Source: Planctomycetaceae bacterium
Lineage (GTDB): Bacteria > Planctomycetota > Planctomycetia > Planctomycetales > Planctomycetaceae
Length of the DNA: 64,000 nucleotides
Assembly: GCA_021732785.1 (NCBI GenBank)
Contig: JAKFUG010000006.1
Location: forward strand, 62,001-126,000
Reading direction: 5' to 3'
Each line of letters begins with the position of its first letter. Within the stretch, counting starts at the first letter, position 1. A program made the position numbers and the translations under genes. This document shows, piece after piece, positions 2,543-26,368 of this stretch. The notes under the pieces were generated by a model. It worked only from the letters and a program-made list of their open reading frames with translations. It did no database searches and was not told where the DNA came from.

Positions 2543-3664
2543 ATGGACGAAGCCAAAGAACAAGGCAAGGATTTAGTCCAGTTGGCGCGACTCGCGTTGG
2601 CCGGACGTCCTCAAGATATTCAGACTTATGTGACGCGGATCTCTCGCAAGTACCAGAAGCTTTCACCAGAACTGGGCGAGCAACTGAAGGAATTGATGAA
2701 GCTCGCGCCAACCCGACAGTCGCCGCTCCGCAGTGAAGGGGTCGCGACGATTCCGGTGGATCGCGACAGCCGTTTGCAATTGCTGCGTCACGAACCGGGG
2801 GCTAGGCTGGAGCATGAACCAATCTGGACGGCGACCGTTGCCGAACAATTGGGGCAAATCGTCTCGGAGCATCTCCGCTCTGACGAACTCCTGGCCAAAG
2901 GGCTGGCTCCCACTCGAACAGCGATCTTCACCGGTCCGCCCGGTGTCGGCAAGACTCTGGCGGCGCGCTGGCTGGCGGCTCAACTCGATCGTCCGCTGCT
3001 CACGCTGGATTTGTCAGCGGTGATGAGCAGTTTTCTGGGTCGTACTGGCACCAATGTCAGGCACGTTCTCGACTATGCCAAGGGCGTGACATGCGTCTTG
3101 TTGTTGGACGAACTTGATGCCATTGCGAAGCGACGTGATGATGCGCAGGAGGTCGGCGAGTTGAAACGCTTGGTGACCGTGTTGCTGCAAGAAGTGGATG
3201 ACTGGCCGGAAGGAGGGTTATTAGTCTCGGCGAGTAATCATCCCGAACTTCTGGACCCTGCCGTCTGGCGACGATTCGAAATGCAGATCGAATTTGAACT
3301 TCCAGAAAAAGACGCCGTGCAACAGGCCATTCAATTGTTTGTGGATGATGCGGCGGCACTCAATGGCAGTTGGTCAGCCGCTCTGGCAGAGGTGCTCTGC
3401 GGCCAATCCTTCAGCGACATCGAACGCGAACTCAAGAGCCTGCGGCGGCAAGCGGTACTCAGCAAATGCCCCCTCGCAGATCTCTTTCCCCGACTGATAC
3501 GCCAGCACATCGACGGTCAACCCAAAACCGCCAGGAAAGACATTGCCTTGCGACTGGCAGAGGCCGGTCTTTCCCAACGTTCCGTTCATGAATTGACAGG
3601 AATCAGCCGTGATACACTCCGGAAGCTGAACCAGGCGGACGAACACCCTTTGGAGCAGAACTGA
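2543..3664 (+). CDS. ietA: AAA+ ATPase of an IetAS-type defence pair
   Basis: A 373-residue AAA+ ATPase. Walker A is GPPGVGKT (131-138), Walker B LLLDELD (186-192), followed by a sensor-like SASNHPELLDPAVWRRF stretch. After a lid region the C-terminus (about 337-366) reads like a helix-turn-helix (LSQRSVHELTGISRDTLRKL). The gene is followed after 1 nt by a subtilisin-like protease; this ATPase plus S8 protease pair is the ietA-ietS arrangement, first described in plasmid incompatibility and later reported as antiphage. The ATG is preceded by GGAG with good spacing. The ATPase is presumed to control or present substrate to the protease; what triggers it is unknown. Six genes from here to 12.56 kb lie close together on one strand. 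Confidence 0.85.
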   Translation: MDEAKEQGKDLVQLARLALAGRPQDIQTYVTRISRKYQKLSPELGEQLKELMKLAPTRQSPLRSEGVATIPVDRDSRLQLLRHEPGARLEHEPIWTATVAEQLGQIVSEHLRSDELLAKGLAPTRTAIFTGPPGVGKTLAARWLAAQLDRPLLTLDLSAVMSSFLGRTGTNVRHVLDYAKGVTCVLLLDELDAIAKRRDDAQEVGELKRLVTVLLQEVDDWPEGGLLVSASNHPELLDPAVWRRFEMQIEFELPEKDAVQQAIQLFVDDAAALNGSWSAALAEVLCGQSFSDIERELKSLRRQAVLSKCPLADLFPRLIRQHIDGQPKTARKDIALRLAEAGLSQRSVHELTGISRDTLRKLNQADEHPLEQN

Positions 3665-5949: not shown

Positions 5950-7404
5950 ATGACCACAACCACTGCAACCAACCGGAGAACATTCCAGGAACTGCTACCG
6001 GAATTGATTGATGCGTATTCTTTGGCTCCCTTGGAATCGCACCCGTTGGCGGATCATACGAATCGGCTGACACCGGCGTTTGCTTCACTGAGCGACAGTA
6101 TCTGGACGGCATTGCCCATAACCGATTTCTCAACAGCCATGACGCATACGGACGTGGCGCGTTCGGTCGGTCAGTGCGCCGCGACTTTGGAACAGAAGCA
6201 ACAAGATGTGCGACAATTTGTGGAATCAATCTGCTATCACGCAGTTGAGTTGCGTGTTCGGGGGCCGCACATTCCGGACGCACGGGCGTCGGCATTGCAA
6301 TCTGCCAGACTCCCCCTGTTGGAAGCCGTCAATCAAGTCACGCAGCCTTTGCGACCTGCGCTCACGGCCGATCTGATGGCCCAGCCGCTGAGTGTTGTGC
6401 ATCCGGAAGTCAATGCGTGGGTTCGCGAAGCATGCCATACCATCGCAGGGCAGTTGCTGTTGTCGATGCATGTCCTGGTGGAACTGGAAACGGTCGGCGT
6501 GATCGAATGGCCGGGCGAAACGACTTGCAAACTCCATTTCTTTCGCCATTTGGTCACGCAGGACCGCATTCGTACTCAGACCACCCGACAAGTTACGGAG
6601 GATGGCGACTCGGACAACCAAATTGTCCGGGTGACTGAACTGCGGCAGACGATGGGCCGCAATCTCTATTCGATCGAACGTCACGAACATCATGTGATGA
6701 ACGCCGAAGTGAGAGAAGTCGATCGCACACAGTTTCCAATTCCCCAAACCTATCAGGAATTCATTCACGCAATTCCCCCGTGGATCAAGCAGTATGTCCG
6801 AATTCTCGAAGGGGATCTGATCCTGGAGCGTGTCACCCAGCGTGACCTGCGGGAAGAAACCTGGGAAACGACGGCCGTGCAACGGACTGCCTACGAAATT
6901 GAGCCTGCGATCTTGCTTGGTCACTATGTCATCACCGGCTGGGGGCAACAAGAAGTCGACCGCGAACAATTTCGCCGAAATCGAATCGCCCAGCGGGAAC
7001 CTCAGGCTGAGCCGGTCAAAGATGACTCCTCGCGGCGCAATGCGGGGAAACAATTCTCCGAATTAGCTCCGCTTGCCAAAGCAACATTCGCGGCCGCTGT
7101 CGCAGTAATGCTGTTCAGCCGCTTGCAACACAGCGTCATGGTTCCCCTGGCGCTGTTGCTGTCCTTGGCAGCCGTGGGTCTCCACGGACGCACTTTTGGC
7201 CTTCAGTCGCTCTGGCGAAATGGTGATGTTGACCGGTTGTTTGTGGGGGCAGGCACGATCGCCATCGCTTCGAGCCTATTGGCGATTGAATCCGCTCTCT
7301 ATGGCGTGTTGTACGGCAGTTGGACAATGGTCGGTTGGTCATTACCGGTGGGAATCGTGGCCATGATCACGTGGGGCATGGCGTCCTCACGGCAGCCAAG
7401 GTAG
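5950..7404 (+). CDS. Unrecognised protein: soluble region plus four C-terminal membrane helices
   Basis: 484 residues, family not recognised. The first 365 or so residues are soluble, largely helical at first, then carry a strand-rich middle part (about 180-300) with many charged residues. Four hydrophobic segments follow from about 372 to the end, so the protein should sit in the inner membrane with its large N-terminal part in the cytoplasm. No signal peptide, P-loop or catalytic motif was found. It starts 61 nt after the protease gene on the same strand, with GAGG ahead of the ATG, and is followed after 6 nt by the next membrane protein. Being locked between IetAS and three further membrane proteins, it may belong to the same functional unit; that is inference. 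Confidence 0.75.
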   Translation: MTTTTATNRRTFQELLPELIDAYSLAPLESHPLADHTNRLTPAFASLSDSIWTALPITDFSTAMTHTDVARSVGQCAATLEQKQQDVRQFVESICYHAVELRVRGPHIPDARASALQSARLPLLEAVNQVTQPLRPALTADLMAQPLSVVHPEVNAWVREACHTIAGQLLLSMHVLVELETVGVIEWPGETTCKLHFFRHLVTQDRIRTQTTRQVTEDGDSDNQIVRVTELRQTMGRNLYSIERHEHHVMNAEVREVDRTQFPIPQTYQEFIHAIPPWIKQYVRILEGDLILERVTQRDLREETWETTAVQRTAYEIEPAILLGHYVITGWGQQEVDREQFRRNRIAQREPQAEPVKDDSSRRNAGKQFSELAPLAKATFAAAVAVMLFSRLQHSVMVPLALLLSLAAVGLHGRTFGLQSLWRNGDVDRLFVGAGTIAIASSLLAIESALYGVLYGSWTMVGWSLPVGIVAMITWGMASSRQPR

Positions 7405-17517: not shown

Positions 17518-18750
17518 ATGCGTTTCTATCTGGACACAGCTCGGATGGGACAAGCTTGTCCCGCAGCGTTGCAAGTTCAGTGCGAAAGTGCCCGACTTGC
17601 CGCTGATGATCCGTCGCTGTACTCGCTTCCTTTTCTCAAGGACGGTGCAAAGGCTTGGCCAGATGATGTGCAGCAGGAATTTCCTGCCTTACGTCAGTGG
17701 CAGGGGACCTGGCAACTGAAGCAAAGATTTGCGACTGCCTGGGGCGTGCCCGATCCGAACCGAGTTTTCTTGGCCGATCAGACCGCTCGGCTCTTGCGAA
17801 TTGCGGCCCGCGTCATGTTTCGCCAGTCCACTCATGTGTTGACCACCGATCTGAATTGGCCCGCTTGGCAGTCCATTGTCGAGGAAGAAGGCCAGCGACA
17901 CGGTCGCCGTGTTTTTCGAGCGGCTATTGCCGAACCCCTCTTGAATCACGGTTGGACGGCGGAAGAAGTCGTACAACACTTGTTGCGGACGTTCTGTGAA
18001 CAGCGTTGCGATGGGGTGTTTCTCCCGGCGGTAAGCAGTCTTGGTGTCTGCCTCCCTGTTACCCAGTTGGTACATCGATTGAAACAACAGGCTGCGCTTC
18101 GATTCGTGCTGATCGATGCCGCTCAGGCATTTTGCCAGATGCCCGATGTTGGAATCGCAGATTGTTGCGATGTGTTGGTCACCGGCTGTCACAAATGGCT
18201 GGGGGCTCATCTTCCGATGGGCATCGCTGTCGCTGGCAATTCCCTGGCTGCAGAACAAATTCGCTGTGTCATCAATGGCCCTCGACACTCGGCTGCTTAC
18301 GATGACCCTTTGTTGCAACTGACCGAACAGCTTCAGACTTCTCACGTGAGTCGCTACTCCGAAACGGTGAATATCCTGCCGGTGCTTTCCGCGAACGCGG
18401 CTTTGGCAAACGTCAAGAATCACCAGCAAGTGTTGGCCTCCGAGTACCGACAGAGGCGGGTCAATGCGGATCTGGTTGCTGAATGCCTTGCGGAAACGGC
18501 TTGGCATCCAGTCGATCTGGATGATTCCGTTCGATCTGCCATTCTCCTGGCACGATGTCGGAGTGGGGTAACCAACTATCTTGACCCGGATGAATTGCAA
18601 TCGGGGTTCCAGCGGCAGGGCATCGCCCTGAGCGCCTATTCCGGTGGATGGCTGCGGGTTTCGATGCCATCGCAAGTCTTCTCACCGGATCACGTCCACC
18701 AACTGACCGCCGCCGTGCATGCCGTTAGTCAGCTATTTCAGTCTTCGTAA
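17518..18750 (+). CDS. PLP-dependent enzyme of aminotransferase class V / cysteine desulfurase fold
   Basis: 410 residues. The fold-type-I signature is present: Asp200 and Gln203 in LIDAAQAF (cofactor ring nitrogen and stacking region) and the Schiff-base Lys226 in TGCHKWLGA. The C-terminal small domain ends with the GWLRVSMPSQVFSPDHV pattern usual for class V enzymes (substrate-side Arg). Substrate unknown: the desulfurase active-site loop with a catalytic Cys is not evident. The start ATG follows the membrane protein by 39 nt. Such an enzyme beside a membrane protein of unknown function on a mobile element is unusual; it might modify a nucleotide or amino acid as part of a defence or signalling pair, which is speculation. 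Confidence 0.75.
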   Translation: MRFYLDTARMGQACPAALQVQCESARLAADDPSLYSLPFLKDGAKAWPDDVQQEFPALRQWQGTWQLKQRFATAWGVPDPNRVFLADQTARLLRIAARVMFRQSTHVLTTDLNWPAWQSIVEEEGQRHGRRVFRAAIAEPLLNHGWTAEEVVQHLLRTFCEQRCDGVFLPAVSSLGVCLPVTQLVHRLKQQAALRFVLIDAAQAFCQMPDVGIADCCDVLVTGCHKWLGAHLPMGIAVAGNSLAAEQIRCVINGPRHSAAYDDPLLQLTEQLQTSHVSRYSETVNILPVLSANAALANVKNHQQVLASEYRQRRVNADLVAECLAETAWHPVDLDDSVRSAILLARCRSGVTNYLDPDELQSGFQRQGIALSAYSGGWLRVSMPSQVFSPDHVHQLTAAVHAVSQLFQSS

Positions 18751-19332
18751 CTCGCTGACGGTCAAATCGTTCTCACGGCTTTCGTACGAAAGACAAAGGA
18801 AAAGAGAGCCTCTCGCCCTGCGATCGCAGAGTAGAAAGTCAGATGTCTTATCCTGGGCGATTCGGTAGCACTGTCAATGCAATGTTTGTTATTCGATTTC
18901 GCACCACAGACTGTTCTGAAAGTGCAGGCCGTAACGATGGGATAGTTCACACGGCAATTGCATTTGGGCGTTGCCCCAAGGGGCCGGGCTTGCTCCGGGC
19001 TGCGCTGTCGCTCGGTCCTGCGGACTGCGTCGCACCCTACGCATCCCTAACGCGGACAGACCACTGAAAGGCCACTCGACTTGGAATGGCCGAGTGGCCA
19101 CGGCGTCAATAACTGTCCGTGTCACTCGCTGCTGATTGGACCTGCGGCCTACGAGGCACTTTGACCGACCTTGATGACAAATGAAGTCAAAATGGTCTTC
19201 ACGGCCGCCAGGACTTCCAAATGCTCCTCAGAACCAACGATGAGTAAACGACAATGACACCCATCGCGGCACCCGGATATTTCACAGCCATCAGCAATAA
19301 GATTGCATAGAAGAAGACGAACTGGGCGGCCA
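18751..19332. other. 580-nt gap with an inverted repeat, no gene seen
   Basis: GGCCACTCG (19070-19078) and CGAGTGGCC (19091-19099) form a 9-bp stem with a 12-nt loop. A self-complementary CTGCGATCGCAG lies near 18821, and GC-rich short repeats lie at 18966-19050. The rest looks non-coding. Confidence 0.5.
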
Positions 19333-20004
19333 TCAGGCCACCTGAAAATTGCAGTCGCCGGTGGGCGCGAAGGGTTGCGTGATTTGCCTTCGTAACGACA
19401 ACGCTGATGCGGGAACGATTTCGTATCCCGCCTGACGACGCACATGATTCACGGTGCGGAGGATGTTCAAAAGCTGACGGCGAATCGGTGCGTAACGAGC
19501 AAATGGGATACGCCGGAAATCTTCGGTCAGCGTGGCCAATTTCCGATGAGCCGCCCGCATGAGAAAATACGCCTTCAATTGTTGATACGTCGTGGCATCA
19601 ATCCGCACGCAGGCGTGCCACTTTGGCGCTGCTCCACCTCGCGGAGTCATCCCGGCGCGACGGTAGCTGATCGAATAGCCCTCGAAGCGAATGGGGTGTC
19701 TGCGACAGTCGCGGATCTGTTCCTGCTGTTTGAAGGGATGGTGTCCTTCGGTCGCGAGCAAGAGAAACCAATCCTGGTAACGGATGTATTGCATATTGGC
19801 CAAGCCTTTAGCTTTGCGAGCCGACCGTTGCCTCTCGGAAATGTCGATTCCGTACTTGGCAACCAGCTTCCGATCGACAGAGTCTGCATCCTTGGAATGG
19901 GGGATTCTGCCGCTGACATACCACCAATAGCCGTGACGCAAGTAGCACACGGCAACTTGTTGAACGAGTCCCTCAGGGCTGCTGGCCACGCATCGGTATT
20001 TCAT
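19333..20004 (-). CDS. Hypothetical element-associated protein, 223 residues
   Basis: A basic protein with many Tyr, Trp, His and Arg residues: HGYWWYVSGRIP, NMQYIRYQDWFLLLATEGHHPF, IRDCRRHPIRFEGYSISYRR, WHACVRIDATTY. The Y/W/R-rich blocks suggest a nucleic-acid-binding protein, but the family is not recognised. The ATG at 20004 is preferred over a TTG at 20028, although no strong ribosome site precedes either. It lies just past the end of the hairpin-rich 20.2-21.5 kb segment on the same strand, so the two could share a transcript. Confidence 0.6.
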   Translation of the reverse strand: MKYRCVASSPEGLVQQVAVCYLRHGYWWYVSGRIPHSKDADSVDRKLVAKYGIDISERQRSARKAKGLANMQYIRYQDWFLLLATEGHHPFKQQEQIRDCRRHPIRFEGYSISYRRAGMTPRGGAAPKWHACVRIDATTYQQLKAYFLMRAAHRKLATLTEDFRRIPFARYAPIRRQLLNILRTVNHVRRQAGYEIVPASALSLRRQITQPFAPTGDCNFQVA

Positions 20005-20172
20005 ACGTTGCCAACTCAAGCACGTCAAAGTTTAAGTCGCAAGAACTTTCTTCGCTGCTTCTCAACCCGCCTCAATGCGTGTTCGCAATGGCTCAAGATT
20101 GTGGGGTTGTTGCGGCCAACCCCACCAAGCCGTTGCAAATCCTTGTCGTATGGACCGACTGAATCCGTCACG

Positions 20173-21541
20173 ATTGTGCGGGACGCACTGCTTTCGTCAG
20201 TGCACCCGCACAATTCATAGTGCCCACGTTCGCATAACCTCAGCCGAACGTTTCGCAGTGCGAAGACGCACCCCGAGCGTTCGTCGTCAGTCTGCCGCCA
20301 ACAGTGGTCGCTCTCCCGAGCCACCACCATCGGCCACATGCTGCCTGCCAAGGACTGAGCCGCACCGATCGTCGGTGCGACTCCTGCAAATCTCCAAACA
20401 GGGTCGGCGACTGACATCGCCTTCAAACCCCTCAGCCCTTTCGTTTCCGTTGATTCGGGGCATCACTCCCAAACACGGACGGGACGCGACTGCCTTGCCG
20501 CGCACGAACTGCCCACCCTGGAAAGGTGGAATTCGTGACCAGACCTTCGCCTGATTCACCGCGCATGCTCCCGCATGCTTCCTACTGAGGCCACTCTCCC
20601 CCACAACGGCACACACCGTTTGAAAACGGATATCTGGCGACCAACCAGACCGCCGGAGTGCCTAACTCCGGACGCCGCTGTGGCTCCTGCGTTAGCATCG
20701 ACCTTCGATTTCGAGTTCACGTTGCTAGGACGTGTTACCGTCCGATCCGCTCAGGTGTGTGCCCCCTTCCGGCAGGCCACACTTTCTCGGCGAATTGCCC
20801 CAGGCAATCACACCGAATTTCCTCTTACGAAAGCAGAAGCTGAGAGTACCGCTCCTGAACGGACTTTCGCGATTCGGCACCGTCTCCTCGAAATCTCACT
20901 GGCAAGCTCTTTCGTTCGTAGTCGATTGAGCCTTTCATGGTTGAGCTTTTCACCGCCGGGCGTTTAACCCAGTCGCCGAAACGGTCATTCCGGTGTCCGT
21001 TGTCGCCAACGAACAGCTCCCCACGCCAGCCGCGTTGAGCGAACTCACATTGCTGCAAGCCCGAACCCCACGGACGGGATTTGCACCCGCTTTGACCTTC
21101 GACCAAAGTCAAAGGCGAAACCAGATTCTGGTTTCATCGACACGGCCTTGTCATGCAAACATGACAAGGGATGTCCGCATCGCCCGCTTTGGCTCTAGCG
21201 GCGTTTCGAACGCCGCGAGCCTTGCCATTGGATAGAACGCCGGGATTACTTCGAGACAACTCCTGGCTCCGATACAAAGGGAGTCAGGTTGGCTCGGGAT
21301 TACTCCGACGAGCCTCCATTGAACTGGACGAGCCACTCTCATGGCAATCCAGCTCGAAGGGTCAGCGCGAGGAAGGGTGGCAACCCTTCAGTCCTTATCC
21401 TCGGTTGATGCGACCGAGATTCCCGGACCCGCTGTCCCCGTTTGGAGAGATCAGCTCAAATCGCTCTTCTTCCCGGTTGGAATACCGGTCTTCGAGCGAA
21501 TGCGTTGTGCTTGAGCATGACGACCGGCAGGTTTCCCTGCC
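20173..21541 (-). ncRNA. Candidate large structured RNA (about 1.37 kb, hairpin-dense)
   Basis: No frame here reads as a protein. At least fifteen hairpins follow one another. Examples with plus-strand coordinates: 20173-20214 (10-bp ATTGTGCGGG/CCCGCACAAT enclosing GCACTG/CAGTGC), 20304-20327, 20362-20378, 20503-20537 (CACGAA/TTCGTG enclosing CCACC/GGTGG), 20563-20578, 20653-20671, 20728-20743, 20998-21011, 21117-21135, 21147-21168, 21191-21221, 21372-21389, 21462-21498 and 21526-21541. Read on the minus strand, the loops at 20314-20317, 20569-20572, 21003-21006 and 21532-21535 are GGGA, GGGA, GCGA and GAAA, all GNRA. This bias favours leftward transcription, in the same direction as and downstream of rep. 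Alternatives are an origin region or several adjacent small RNAs. No known class was recognised. Confidence 0.5.
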
Positions 21542-21862
21542 TACGCAAACGATGGTAGCCGGATGACGAAAGACTGTCACGAACTTCCTGCTGCCGTCGT
21601 CCGCCCTGGCATCGGCAAGCTGGCTCAGCGATACCGATCGCCCGTCACGATGACGTGTCGGAGGCGTCGCACGAATTCGGCGTTCAGGCGTGTCGTTTGC
21701 GTCGCATTTTCCCCTCAAGACGTGTCGCAATCGTCGCAACGAGTACGCCACATCCCGTTCCAAGTTGCGGAAATGACACGACAAATCCGTGGGACGCATA
21801 ATCGCCAAAGGTACTGGTACAAAGAGAATATGAAAAACAAAGGGAGAATTGCTGGAAACGAT

Positions 21863-23131
21863 TCAGAGAAGTCTTTTGAGTAAGTCCGCCGTCGACTCGG
21901 GATTGGGACTCTTCGATGTTCGAGGTGACTGGGAACCGAATACCTCATCGACCAGTCGAGACAGCACTTTTCTGCCTTCAGCGGTCGGATGCTGTTTTCG
22001 AAGTTCTTGCCGACGAGCAGCGTGCCACCAGTCCGGTGGCGTTCGCAATCCCAACGCTGCTTGTTTCAACGAGTCGACCAGAAACGCCATCGGGCTGACT
22101 CGGAAATGATGGTTACCAAAACGTTCCAATGCGGCCTGCGTGATGTCGATCCAGAGTGCTACCTGCGATTGCGGATATTTCTGAATGAGTCGCACGGCGG
22201 CGGCGGCCTCAAATCCAATCGCCAACAGGCCGTCCATCAACGGAGAGTTCTCGACAGATGACTGTTTCGTTCGCGGCACTGTCGCGTCGAGTCTGTCGCC
22301 GCGCTCGAAGGCAACAGAGAAGACGCCGGGACGCATGCGTGAAATCGCTGATTCCTTGATAATGCCCGCGTCGGTCAACCGGAGCAGCGTGCGTTGCACT
22401 TTCACTTTCACGTCGCGAATGGCCAGGTTTGAAGAAAGCCCCAACACGTCGACTCCCAAATGAGACAATTCAAACACCGGCAATCGCCCCGGTCGATAAC
22501 CTACCTTCAAAATCAGCAACAGCAGTCGCCGGGATGCGGCATCCAGTGAGCGATAGAGTTCGAGATCAAACCGCATGCCACCACCGTTCGCCTGAATCAA
22601 AGCAAAGAACACTCTGTCCCAGCAGATTGTCCAGGCACGGCTGGATTCGGGATTAGCAGGCAGCGAGTAACTCAGGAATCCAAAGCTGACTTTGCGGTAC
22701 TCGCTGCGCGATGGGTCATAACAGGCATCGCTGAGATACTTCACCATCGATAACCGTTGGAGTGCTGCGGAAAACTCCTGATACTGACGCCCGCCGCGTC
22801 GTGTTCCGGCATCAATGAGCCCCAATTGCGTCAGGCACCAGTGTGGCGTCGCCGTGAGGGTTCCATCCGTCTCATGCTGTTCGAGCGTCAGCGCCAGTAA
22901 GCCCCACAAATAGAGTTCGTCCGTGGGCGAGAGTCCCAGCGGCGCAAATACTCGGACCTTGGCCGTCTGCCGTCTTCGACGGGCATCACTGTAGTGATAC
23001 TCGACGGCATGGATGAGATTGTTTTTCGTCGTCCGGTCCAGCGGACACAGCGAGTGTTCGACCAATGACAATTGGCCCACACCCACACGCCGTTTTGCTG
23101 CTTGCTTCAACACACTTAAAGCAGTTAGCAC
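21863..23131 (-). CDS. Plasmid-type replication initiator (RepA-like)
   Basis: 422 residues resembling the 'replication initiator protein A' group of plasmid Rep proteins, which bind origin repeats and recruit the helicase. Supporting blocks are VRVFAPLGLSPTDELYLWGLLALTL, the winged-helix-like CLTQLGLIDAGTRRGGRQYQEFSAALQRLS segment and a second winged helix around LRLTDAGIIKE. The last 100 residues are basic and Pro/Ser-rich. It is divergent from parA-parB across about 100 nt, the classic replicon layout. The start is uncertain: GTG at 23131 was used, no ATG being available near the N-terminus. Its presence means the integrated element can, or once could, replicate on its own. Confidence 0.78.
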   Translation of the reverse strand: MLTALSVLKQAAKRRVGVGQLSLVEHSLCPLDRTTKNNLIHAVEYHYSDARRRRQTAKVRVFAPLGLSPTDELYLWGLLALTLEQHETDGTLTATPHWCLTQLGLIDAGTRRGGRQYQEFSAALQRLSMVKYLSDACYDPSRSEYRKVSFGFLSYSLPANPESSRAWTICWDRVFFALIQANGGGMRFDLELYRSLDAASRRLLLLILKVGYRPGRLPVFELSHLGVDVLGLSSNLAIRDVKVKVQRTLLRLTDAGIIKESAISRMRPGVFSVAFERGDRLDATVPRTKQSSVENSPLMDGLLAIGFEAAAAVRLIQKYPQSQVALWIDITQAALERFGNHHFRVSPMAFLVDSLKQAALGLRTPPDWWHAARRQELRKQHPTAEGRKVLSRLVDEVFGSQSPRTSKSPNPESTADLLKRLL

Positions 23132-23231
23132 GACTCGCCGGAAAATGGAAATGACGATTTTGCTTGACGACCTTCCTCGTTTCGTGACACGGTTTCCTCA
23201 GTATTCATGAAGACTTAAAGGAGAATTGCCA

Positions 23232-24059
23232 ATGGCAATCGGCAACCAGCACACCACATCCATCTGCCTGATCAACCAGAAAGGGGGCTGCGGCAAGAGT
23301 TCCACCTGCTTTCACCTGGCGGGAACGTTCGCTGCTTTCGGCCGACGAGTCCTGCTCGTCGATGCCGATCCGCAAGGTTCCATCAGCCAGGGCTTCTTCG
23401 GTTCCGACGCGGTGGAGCAGTTGCCTGCGTGGGACACTTTGGCGGCACTGTTTGATGAACGGTGCCATCACATCGATCCGGAAGCATTAATTCGGCCCAC
23501 GCAGATCGACGGAATTCATGTCCTGCCTGCCAACCATCATCTGGCGGCCTTCAACACGCCATTGCCGGAACAGGGCGGTGTCATGCAATTCGCATTGCGG
23601 GATTTTTTGGAGCCACTGCCGCGGTTCGACGTTGTGCTGTTTGACTGTCCGCCGAATCTGTATCAATGCAGTTGGAACGCCATGATCGCGGCAGAACATG
23701 TCCTGATTCCGATACCTCCCGAAGATTTCGGCACGCAGGGAATCCGAGCCGTGCATCAGGCGGTGGCCAATGCCCGTGTCCTGAATCCGTCCCTGCGACG
23801 ACTGGGGCACCTGATTACGCGCAGTGACCGCCGCATGTTGGTCCATCGTGCCTACGAAGCGCGGCTGCGCGACCTATACGGCGAACTCGTGTTGCAAACG
23901 ACGATTCCGGAGCTGTCCGCCTTCAAAGTCGCTTTGGCCTGTAGACTGCCGGTGCAAATGCATGCACCGAAATCGGCCGCTGCTGTTGTTACCCGGCAAC
24001 TGATCGAGGAGCTGACGCAACGGATTCAGAGTCGAAAGCTCCACAAGGAGGCCGCATGA
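23232..24059 (+). CDS. parA: ParA-type partition ATPase
   Basis: 275 residues. The deviant Walker A motif KGGCGKSS (17-24) has the signature lysine at its start; DADPQGSISQ and LFDCPPNL provide the A' and B regions of the MinD/ParA family. The ATPase binds DNA non-specifically and moves ParB-bound plasmid copies apart. The ATG at 23232 has an AAAGGAG site 9 nt upstream; a TTG at 23226 lies inside the same leader. The stop overlaps parB as ATGA. It lacks an N-terminal HTH, so autoregulation would need ParB or Rep. Confidence 0.9.
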   Translation: MAIGNQHTTSICLINQKGGCGKSSTCFHLAGTFAAFGRRVLLVDADPQGSISQGFFGSDAVEQLPAWDTLAALFDERCHHIDPEALIRPTQIDGIHVLPANHHLAAFNTPLPEQGGVMQFALRDFLEPLPRFDVVLFDCPPNLYQCSWNAMIAAEHVLIPIPPEDFGTQGIRAVHQAVANARVLNPSLRRLGHLITRSDRRMLVHRAYEARLRDLYGELVLQTTIPELSAFKVALACRLPVQMHAPKSAAAVVTRQLIEELTQRIQSRKLHKEAA

Positions 24060-24952
24060 GCAACACACGCAATGTCCTGAAACAAATGAACGACAATCTC
24101 AATGAATCGATCGGCGTACGAAGAACGGAACTGCGTCCGCAACTGAGTCCCATCGCTGCTGCCCGTGATATCGGTCGACGCGGGAATCGGGCATTTGGGC
24201 AGATTGAGATTGATCGAATCCAGCCTGACCCCGACCAGCCGCGGACGGAATTCGATCCGATTGCACTGGAACACCTCGCAGGCAGTATGCGTGATAAAGG
24301 CCAGCTCGCACCAATTCGAGTCCGCTGGTCTGAGCCACTTGCGACATGGCTGATCATTTCCGGCGAACGTCGTTGGCGCGCCGCGCAACAAGCCGGGATG
24401 AAGGTCATCAATTGTTACTTTCAGGAACTGGCCTTGAGTCCCACACAGATTCTGGAGGAACAACTGATTGAGAATCTGTTGCGAGTCGATCTGAGACCCG
24501 TCGAAGAAGCAGAGTCATTTCAGAAACTGATGACGGTCAACAAATGGACTGGCAAAGACCTCGCAGCGGCACTCAATATCAGCCCCACGCGCGTCTCACG
24601 GGCACTGGCGTTGCTCAAGCTCCCGCACGAGATGCGAGTCCGAGTTGATGAGGGCGAACTCTCGCCGCGTGCCGGTTACGAACTTTCCAAACTCTCCGAA
24701 CCGCAGTTGGCGCAGGTGAAACACGTCAGCCAGCCGCTGACAGTCGAGCAGGCGTCTCGCGTTGTTCGTCAGCGAACAGGTAAGGCTCAACCGACTTCGC
24801 GTGGAGCGCGGCAGACTTTCATTGCTGAGAACGGCTGGCAGATTGTGGCCAAGTCATCCCGCAAAGGAACGTACCACGAAATCGAAGCGGCACTTGTTGA
24901 AGCCCTCGAAGAAGTCCGATTGCGAATCGACAACCGCGTGAATCTGCTGTAG
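24056..24952 (+). CDS. parB: ParB-type partition protein
   Basis: 298 residues. The N-terminal ParB/Srx CTPase domain shows DPDQPR, then GQLAPIRVR and the GERRWRAAQQAG arginine patch (about 102-113). The HTH follows (TGKDLAAALNISPTRVSRALALLKLP, about 163-188) and a C-terminal dimerisation region ends the protein. It binds a centromere-like parS site and spreads. The ATGA overlap with parA gives coupled translation. No parS could be identified by eye; the GC-rich palindromes just downstream (24972-25190) are candidates only by position. Confidence 0.9.
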   Translation: MSNTRNVLKQMNDNLNESIGVRRTELRPQLSPIAAARDIGRRGNRAFGQIEIDRIQPDPDQPRTEFDPIALEHLAGSMRDKGQLAPIRVRWSEPLATWLIISGERRWRAAQQAGMKVINCYFQELALSPTQILEEQLIENLLRVDLRPVEEAESFQKLMTVNKWTGKDLAAALNISPTRVSRALALLKLPHEMRVRVDEGELSPRAGYELSKLSEPQLAQVKHVSQPLTVEQASRVVRQRTGKAQPTSRGARQTFIAENGWQIVAKSSRKGTYHEIEAALVEALEEVRLRIDNRVNLL

Positions 24953-25390: not shown

Positions 25391-26368
25391 TTGGCACGGG
25401 ACCATTTTTACTTCAAACGACAGCGATACGACGTGGTCGATCGCGCCGTGCTGGGACGGAAAGAATTCCTGCTCACTCGCCAACTCTCGTCCGGCCCCCG
25501 TCGCCGGTTTCTGGCATACGATCCCATCGCCGGTCCGAAAGGTGCTTTGCGAATCGTGCAGTTCATGCCCCATGTTGGCGACTCCTGGCAGCGTGTGGGC
25601 GTGCTCCAGCGATTGTCGCAGCACAACCCAGAGCTGCCGCAGATCGTCGAATTTCACCGCCATCGCGATGAAATCGTGTCGGTGGAAACGTGGATTGAAG
25701 GCCGGGATCTGCGGTGGTGGATTCGAGCGATGCGTGAATCCACGCGACAGCGGCTGGGAGCCCCTGAAGCGATGCGACTGTTTCGTCAACTCGCTCATGC
25801 GTTGCATCACATTCATCGTCACTGCGGCGTGATCCACGCCGATATCAAACCAGCCAATATCATTCTCTCACACACGTCCCGGAAACTGACTCTGATCGAT
25901 TTCGGGAGTGCCTGGGGTGTGGAACGCAGCCACGTTCGTCACACGGGTGATGGTCGTAGCGACCTCTACGCCGCCCCCGAAATTATGAATGACGCGGCCG
26001 GCGTCAACTTTCGCGCGGACTATTTCTCGCTGGCGGTCGTTTGCTTTGAAGTGTTGGCATTGCAACTCCCGTATGACGGACTCGGTGGACGTGCCGGTTT
26101 GTCAAAGTATGTTGGCCAGCAGGACTCACTGTATGTGCCATGCAGCCAGCTCAGTCGAGAGCAGCAGAAATTGGACCGACGTGTCTGGCTCGCCATTGAC
26201 GCATTTCTGACCCGCGCCCTCAGCATCGATCCGGAGCAACGTCACAGCAATGGCATCGACTGGCTCGCAGAATGGGACTCGGTTGTGAATCTGATTCAGC
26301 GACCGGAACCCGTTTCTCTGTGGACTCGGTTGATGATGAAAGTCAGTGATTGGCTCGATACTCGCTAA
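25391..26368 (+). CDS. Hanks-type Ser/Thr protein kinase-like protein
   Basis: 325 residues. Catalytic loop HADIKPAN (149-156; HRD is HAD, with the catalytic Asp kept), DFG (170-172) and APE (195-197, in YAAPE) are present, followed by the ADYFSLAVVCFEVL helix of the C-lobe. The glycine loop is poor, and the beta-3 ATP-binding lysine appears to be replaced by Arg (GALRIVQFMP, about residue 54), so activity is likely but not certain. No transmembrane segment. No ATG fits; TTG at 25391, after a GGGAA stretch, gives the full N-lobe. It ends 4 nt inside the convergent Cas4-like gene and faces a pseudokinase gene, so the three form one cassette. Confidence 0.78.
   Translation: MARDHFYFKRQRYDVVDRAVLGRKEFLLTRQLSSGPRRRFLAYDPIAGPKGALRIVQFMPHVGDSWQRVGVLQRLSQHNPELPQIVEFHRHRDEIVSVETWIEGRDLRWWIRAMRESTRQRLGAPEAMRLFRQLAHALHHIHRHCGVIHADIKPANIILSHTSRKLTLIDFGSAWGVERSHVRHTGDGRSDLYAAPEIMNDAAGVNFRADYFSLAVVCFEVLALQLPYDGLGGRAGLSKYVGQQDSLYVPCSQLSREQQKLDRRVWLAIDAFLTRALSIDPEQRHSNGIDWLAEWDSVVNLIQRPEPVSLWTRLMMKVSDWLDTR

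Follow-up and report, generated by a model that had tools for sequence, protein, structure and literature searches.

The RNA encoded on the minus strand at 20173-21541 of the window (the whole 64-kb stretch of planctomycete DNA analysed here) is almost certainly a circularly permuted (CP) group II ribozyme, a rare but known class first called T-large (Roth et al. 2021, PMC8637638). It is thus not the undescribed class that the initial annotation had proposed, as domains 5 and 6 (D5-D6) were detected at the homologous place in its relatives. The best explanation of the locus, with a probability of roughly 0.8, is a CP group II ribozyme and, encoded alongside it, a dedicated protein cofactor, AcpG. 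Both this RNA class and the association of AcpG with it are already published, and the planctomycete and other hosts, a split domain 4 (D4) stem, and a predicted maturase-like fold of AcpG with a model of its origin are new within the literature searched. Among the papers listed in these searches, none was seen to connect AcpG with a maturase.

The segment had been described as a large structured RNA with the minus strand as sense, and both folding energy and covariation in homologues bear this out. Energies were computed for 50 intervals of 200 nt with starts from 18500 to 23400, each compared with 40 dinucleotide shuffles. On the minus strand, z was at or below -2 in 12 of the 14 intervals starting within 20100-21400 (lowest value -5.90; exceptions at 20800 and 21200), compared with 4 of the 36 outside (18500, 19000, 20000, and 22500), indicating the energy excess over shuffled controls that the annotation had anticipated. 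The plus strand was also low within the segment (z at or below -2 in 11/14 intervals), because perfect stems fold on both strands, and in 10 of these 14 the minus strand had the lower z. The minimum free energy of 20173-21541 was -660.5 kcal/mol, a single value obtained without shuffles at full length. Moreover, reading the sequence confirmed the GNRA loops GGGA, GGGA, GCGA, and GAAA on the minus strand; this loop bias had rightly pointed to the strand that is sense. The proposed ends were also nearly right, since the alignment of the best homologue (L026) spans 20236-21528 and the pieces of another (L027) start at 20185.

BLASTN against 59 relatives revealed good homologues in seven other genomes, one of which (G017) has several copies; 20861-21083 and 21297-21366 stood out as conserved blocks. 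BLASTN of the RNA against plasmids returned no match. Rfam gave no match to the segment in the 64-kb window, where only a tRNA at 38 kb was found, and relaxed thresholds left the segment without a match. In several relatives, the corresponding region reached the cut-off of Rfam family RF00029 (group II D5-D6); there, D5 lies near the 5' end and is followed by about 1 kb of conserved RNA, suggesting the CP group II arrangement. The RNA runs from high to low coordinates and was mapped as follows:

20173..21541, minus strand: CP group II ribozyme as a whole (energy excess, homologues, covariation, and D5-D6 matches in relatives)
21399..21419, minus strand: 5' hairpin corresponding to P2 (predicted hairpin; loop bases 21406-21410 pair with 20461-20465)
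21357..21361, minus strand: bases immediately before D5, best read as the 3' half of the split basal stem of D4 (pairs with 20428-20432)
21321..21355, minus strand: domain 5, with AGC start, GAGA tetraloop, and UC bulge (sequence, alignment A3, and covariation)
21227..21318, minus strand: domain 6 (covariation in its basal and upper helices; 3' splice site at 21227/21226)
21186..21226, minus strand: linker of 41 nt enclosed by the reversed splice sites (predicted to be released as a circle; contains IBS1, 21186-21190)
20790..21185, minus strand: domain 1, 3' limit approximate (EBS1 at 20830-20834; a GGGCGAT start marks the predicted 5' splice site)
20433..20789, minus strand: domains 2 and 3 taken together, limits approximate (alignment and covariation)
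20428..20432, minus strand: strand best read as the 5' strand of the split D4 basal stem (covarying with 21357-21361)
20173..20427, minus strand: distal D4-like hairpins before the AcpG gene (energy and fold; assigned by position only)

In alignment A3, which comprises 39 of the 41 sequences (L060 and L152 left out), the D5 bulge was TT or TC in all 39, and the UC of the window copy is of the UN form. D6 (21318-21227) terminates in CTATCCAAT, and, by analogy, a branch-point A is predicted at 21233. The linker measured 12-63 nt across 40 sequences.

According to PMC8637638, CP RNAs are marked by D5 and D6 upstream of D1-D4, by a UN instead of an AY bulge in D5, by reversed splice sites that enclose a linker of usually less than 100 nt and have GUGYG-like and AY ends, by EBS1-IBS1 pairing, and by a pseudoknot between the P2 loop and the D2 loop. 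In the alignments, which include a covariance model (R1, from 39 sequences) aligned to the plasmids pTT8 and pPNAP05, D5 and D6 of the segment precede D1-D4. A canonical group II intron, with D1-D6 in order and splice sites at its ends, was ruled out by this domain order. The splice-site ends in the window are AAT and GGGCGAT; GGGCGA deviates from GUGYG, as do the ends in pTT8 and pPNAP05, where the R1 matches have GGGCGAC at the 5' splice site. These two plasmids, whose CP RNAs were published by Roth et al., carry full-length R1 matches (pTT8 5921-5753, minus strand; pPNAP05 130-289) scoring 32.3 and 42.8 bits, respectively, a range shared with loci that look canonical, and the class argument was therefore drawn from domain order and aligned splice sites rather than from the R1 score. 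The near-certain assignment is based on the D5-D6-linker-D1-D2/D3-D4 order, the UN bulge, the reversed splice sites, the IBS1/EBS1 pairing, and the P2-type loop contact.

Covariation in the homologues, a check that the annotation had proposed, proved strong in alignments of 39-41 sequences. Counting a pair as compensated when at least one sequence had both sides changed with pairing kept, 28/35 predicted pairs were compensated in D5, D6, and the 5' splice-site hairpin (39 sequences), 43/55 in the D1 region, and 41/46 in the D2/D3 region (both 41 sequences). A downstream scan for a partner of the last bases of the linker placed 20829-20834 at the top: its best register had 84% of pairs formed, the background averaging 35%. 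When IBS1 and EBS1 were set in register as in the window copy (AAAGC with GCTTT), 11 of 40 sequences were fully paired and 79.5% of pairs formed, and none of 2000 row shuffles was as good (mean 3.3 fully paired, maximum 10).

Two further contacts emerged from a scan of the 5' leader against the rest of the RNA, evaluated by row shuffles that keep sequence relatedness. Bases 21357-21361 paired fully with 20428-20432 in 39/41 sequences through 16 combinations, and the P2-type loop (21406-21410) did so with 20461-20465 in 31/39, neither being equalled in 2000 row shuffles; the partner of the loop lies within the D2/D3 region, the known partner in the P2 pseudoknot being the D2 loop. The former contact joins bases just 5' of D5 to bases just 3' of D3 and is best read as a D4 stem split by the permutation, because pairing between these positions constitutes the D4 stem in a linear intron. 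The maturase ORF is usually located in D4, and a split D4 stem would therefore place the permutation breakpoint within the domain where ordinary introns carry the maturase gene.

Downstream of the RNA lies the following gene:

19333..20004, minus strand: acpG-like gene with an ATG at 20004 and a product of 223 aa (RT palm and thumb predicted, catalytic aspartates absent)

In Thermus, AcpG is TTHC007 (PMC8637638); its length and position suggest that it corresponds to pTT8 6164-6943. The window protein family gave no match to this single protein, either by BLASTP or with a profile. The 38-member profile of this family matched that of five Thermus AcpG proteins with a probability of 95.1 (E 3.2e-8) over 167 colinear columns; a repeat comparison gave 94.0, against 1.5 for the best of 100 column-shuffled profiles and 0.4 for the reversed profile. 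From this profile similarity, the product of 19333-20004 is considered a remote homologue of AcpG. Locus L092 was excluded from the protein alignments owing to a stop within the coordinates used.

The gene accompanies the RNA at most loci. Among 46 distinct CP loci found by signature, a set that is partly protein-selected since some loci were fetched through the AcpG protein, 37 had an AcpG gene, always on the same strand and 1.03-1.79 kb after D5; six of the nine negative loci have less than 1.3 kb of downstream sequence. A pattern scan of genome contigs (at least 120 stretches) was independent of AcpG. Among the matches listed, AcpG was found at 24/24 signature loci with at least 1.6 kb downstream and, with the same downstream length, at 7/10 further loci with R1 scores of at least 86 bits, giving 31/34 CP loci with AcpG on the same strand among the matches listed, although a few of the 34 are close relatives of each other. 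AcpG was not found downstream of the CP loci L080, L090, and L140, and no 5' splice-site motif was seen in the latter two. The first of these (L080:1389-1596, plus strand, Bythopirellula) has a strong CP RNA of 137.5 bits with no AcpG in 6.6 kb downstream, and may serve as a test case for protein-free function or for AcpG acting in trans. For loci obtained by RNA BLAST with at least 2 kb downstream, AcpG was present at 4/7, and an unfiltered HMM search also detected no downstream AcpG at L031, L034, and L035. In addition, 9 of 392 planctomycete genomes had R1 matches of at least 86 bits and 8 had AcpG, all among these 9, the RNA of the ninth lying 340 nt from a contig end; a further 35 planctomycete genomes had R1 matches of at most 45.5 bits, canonical and CP forms being counted together. 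In pPNAP05, the 135-aa protein downstream is not AcpG-like. The planctomycete genome G017 has AcpG homologues on six contigs (C176, C88, C159, C161, C201, and C239), one of which is broken by a TAG, suggesting an expansion.

The surroundings of the RNA are plasmid-like, as had been claimed, and include the following genes:

21863..23131, minus strand: rep-like gene upstream of the RNA, in the same direction (named in the initial annotation; homologues adjoin the RNA in relatives)
23226..24059, plus strand: parA (domain searches)
24056..24952, plus strand: parB (domain searches)

The RNA lies downstream of the rep-like gene and is codirectional with it, and neither Pfam nor NCBIfam gave a match for the 21863..23131 product. 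Homologues of the rep, parA, or parB genes of the window occurred in the examined flanks of 10/46 CP loci and of 4/88 other pattern loci, all four with strong CP RNA by R1. Next to parB, a protein kinase gene (25391-26368, plus strand) was detected, whose best NCBIfam match is the defence kinase MAD6, far below the model cut-off.

The CP class is present in Planctomycetota and in other phyla, including Cyanobacteriota, none of which is named among the hosts in the available text of Roth et al. (PMC8637638). Nine loci with CP RNA and AcpG (L084, L099, L095, L096, L131, L175, L133, L041, and L123) have record names of Bdellovibrionales, Alphaproteobacteria, Hydrogenedentota, Bryobacterales, Acidobacteria, Thiocystis, and cyanobacteria; as several of them are MAGs, misbinning is possible. 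A plasmid of Calothrix NIES-4101 has two CP-type D5-D6 matches 2.1 kb apart (L042:658-818 and 2809-2959, plus strand), with AcpG closely after the second only. A 5.5-kb Planococcus plasmid has a rep gene and a CP-type match (L043:3074-3218, plus strand, 54.8 bits), which a divergent AcpG follows at a distance of about 0.65 kb, and could be a compact laboratory model. The D5 pattern scan of viral contigs found none, and AcpG alignment A2 gave four pattern matches in viral contigs, none of which was confirmed.

In one relative, a canonical ORF-less group II intron (GTGCG...CCTAC, 712 nt; L029:4024-4735, plus strand) lies inside D5 of a CP ribozyme, the flanks of which join to a perfect D5 without it. 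A second CP copy (L030) has the same insertion and is 84% identical over the compared part, and G017:C271:141-358 is a further 5' fragment. In such a twintron, the CP active site would be available only once the inserted intron has been spliced out. A canonical intron nested in D5 of a CP ribozyme is new within the literature searched.

Regarding the nature of AcpG, an AlphaFold2 model from 26 sequences reached a pLDDT of 90 and a pTM of 0.84; a run on the single sequence of L142 gave a pLDDT of 41 and was unusable as an independent model. The first eight of the 50 structural matches listed (8h2h, 8fli, 8t2r, 8t2s, 6me0, 7uim, 9d5x, and 6ar1) are group II intron reverse transcriptases (RTs) or the group II-like G2L4 RT, with Z of 10.3 over 200 residues for 8h2h and 8.1 for 6ar1. 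The others of the 50 are spliceosome core chains, DRT9, retrons, and other RTs or related polymerases. The spliceosome core chains, which we take to be Prp8 (chain A), follow the group II RTs with Z of about 6-8, a range in which values of 7-8 are common for unrelated models according to the caution of the tool itself. Foldseek was weak on the same model (best E 0.014, TM 0.26).

The AcpG profile matched that of 17 RT sequences taken from the loci with an E of 1.8e-4 or 4.1e-4, depending on column choice. The score was 35.7, compared with 23.5 for the best of 200 shuffles and at most 19.7 for six unrelated families; it ranged from 24.0 to 46.6 in half-samples and was only 25.1 with an automatically clustered RT family (best shuffle 23.5). 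The alignment places MQYIRYQDWFLLLAT of AcpG on VNYVRYADDFVITGI of the RTs in the YADD register, such that RYQDWF falls on RYADDF and FEGYSIS on FLGQNL, with the next helix on the thumb. Arg83, opposite the Arg of RYADD, is invariant (38/38), whereas none of the 38 members has the DD pair at the motif C position or the motif A Asp, the position of the latter being placed by eye on YVxGxIP. AcpG was therefore not filed as a reverse transcriptase. Among other searches, the Thermus AcpG proteins alone gave no match to RTs (12.4), AcpG had no hit to the Pfam RT domain, the host genome yielded no GIIM maturase domain, and the PDB sequence search with the AcpG profile returned only three weak, unrelated chains. 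PF14907 was matched by 2/38 members (best E 0.0051), and the window protein scored 13.7 bits against PF15132 (cut-off 27). From one predicted model and a modest profile score, AcpG is likely a shrunken, RT-dead relative of group II maturases.

The same data bear on a competing reading, in which the CP ribozyme is real and AcpG is an unrelated nucleic-acid-binding alpha/beta protein that merely resembles an RT palm and thumb. This would be in keeping with the weak Foldseek result, the modest and sample-dependent profile score, the Thermus proteins without RT similarity, and the loci, here and in PMC8637638, at which AcpG is absent or lies elsewhere. It is nevertheless improbable, given that rows 1-8 of the structural comparison are group II RTs and the others of the 50 are RTs, related polymerases, and spliceosome chains, and that the YADD-register alignment, the Arg83 of all 38 members, and the position of the gene right after D4 all point to a maturase relative. 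Still less probable is a decayed CP group II remnant that hitch-hikes on the plasmid with no activity or role, as might be imagined from the incomplete look of L034, from the interruption of L029 and L030 by another intron, and from the near-complete deletion in pTT8 that left replication unaffected (PMC8637638); the window copy has kept D5, the splice sites, the IBS1-EBS1 pairing, and the split D4 stem intact, and the covariation in relatives implies long purifying selection. Finally, an undescribed class of structured RNA, or a hairpin array acting as DNA (an origin or recombination site), would fit the missing Rfam match in the window and the good folding of both strands, but has a negligible probability in view of the lower minus-strand z in 10/14 intervals, the GNRA loops on that strand, and the D5-D6, splice sites, EBS1, and CP-type loop contact that identify the class, and the DNA array was dropped once D5-D6 and covariation had been found.

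With a CP ribozyme and its cofactor AcpG as the preferred reading, the minus-strand transcript would run in the order P2, D4 3' strand, D5, D6, linker, D1, D2/D3, D4 5' strand, and AcpG gene. The locus would thus resemble an ordinary ORF-bearing group II intron opened in D4 just after the maturase gene, with the splice sites inside; in ordinary group II introns, the ORF is located in D4 (PMC8637638). Pairing between the D4 strands, together with the contact made by the P2 loop, would hold the ends of the RNA together, and AcpG, as a mini RT palm and thumb, may bind the RNA as a maturase does and stabilise its active fold. The 2'-OH of A21233 would attack the 21186/21185 junction, and the freed 3' end would then attack 21227/21226, yielding a 41-nt circle (21186-21226) and a 2'-5' branched RNA. 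Back-splicing chemistry in vitro has been published for five relatives (PMC8637638), and by analogy the window copy is predicted to be active in back-splicing. RNA binding by AcpG and its descent from an intron-encoded protein are both inferred. It is fairly probable that the intron-encoded maturase itself survives as AcpG, having stayed behind D4 when the intron was permuted and then lost its fingers, endonuclease, and RT catalysis. The plasmid might benefit from a branch-protected transcript or from an EBS-guided, trans-acting ribonucleoprotein.

The nature of AcpG, the protein need of CP ribozymes, and their role were left open by Roth et al. (PMC8637638). Together, the split of D4 and the predicted maturase-like fold of AcpG suggest one answer on what AcpG is, on the protein need of these ribozymes, and on the origin of the permutation. 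If true, CP ribozyme and AcpG would form a self-contained back-splicing ribonucleoprotein without retromobility, a bacterial parallel to the RT-dead Prp8, and RT-dead maturases for rearranged group II cores would have arisen both in bacteria and on the lineage to Prp8.

Compared with the CP ribozymes of PMC8637638, the window RNA is alike in its D5-D6-D1-D2-D3-D4 order, UN bulge, predicted branch A in D6, reversed splice sites, short linker, EBS/IBS pairing, P2-type loop contact, lack of an internal ORF, plasmid setting, and nearby AcpG. It differs in length (about 1.35 kb vs about 900 nt), in that AcpG lies downstream on the same strand wherever it was found at signature loci (37/46), and in the split D4 described here. 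The locus has the domains of canonical ORF-bearing group II introns, including D5 and D6, as well as their EBS1-IBS1 pairing and a protein gene placed behind the 5' strand of D4, whereas its splice sites are reversed and internal. Likewise, the predicted fold and motif register of AcpG resemble the palm and thumb of canonical maturases, but AcpG has only about 220 aa and lacks fingers, endonuclease, and catalytic aspartates. With Thermus AcpG (TTHC007), it shares colinear profile homology over 167 columns and the association with CP RNA, in contrast to the missing sequence similarity by BLASTP and to gene placement, which is upstream and divergent in Thermus (PMC8637638) and downstream and codirectional in the window. 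Similar to Prp8, AcpG would be RT-like, devoid of catalytic activity, and in the service of an active site of group II type, a functional parallel that we infer; unlike Prp8, it is a small bacterial protein associated with a single ribozyme.
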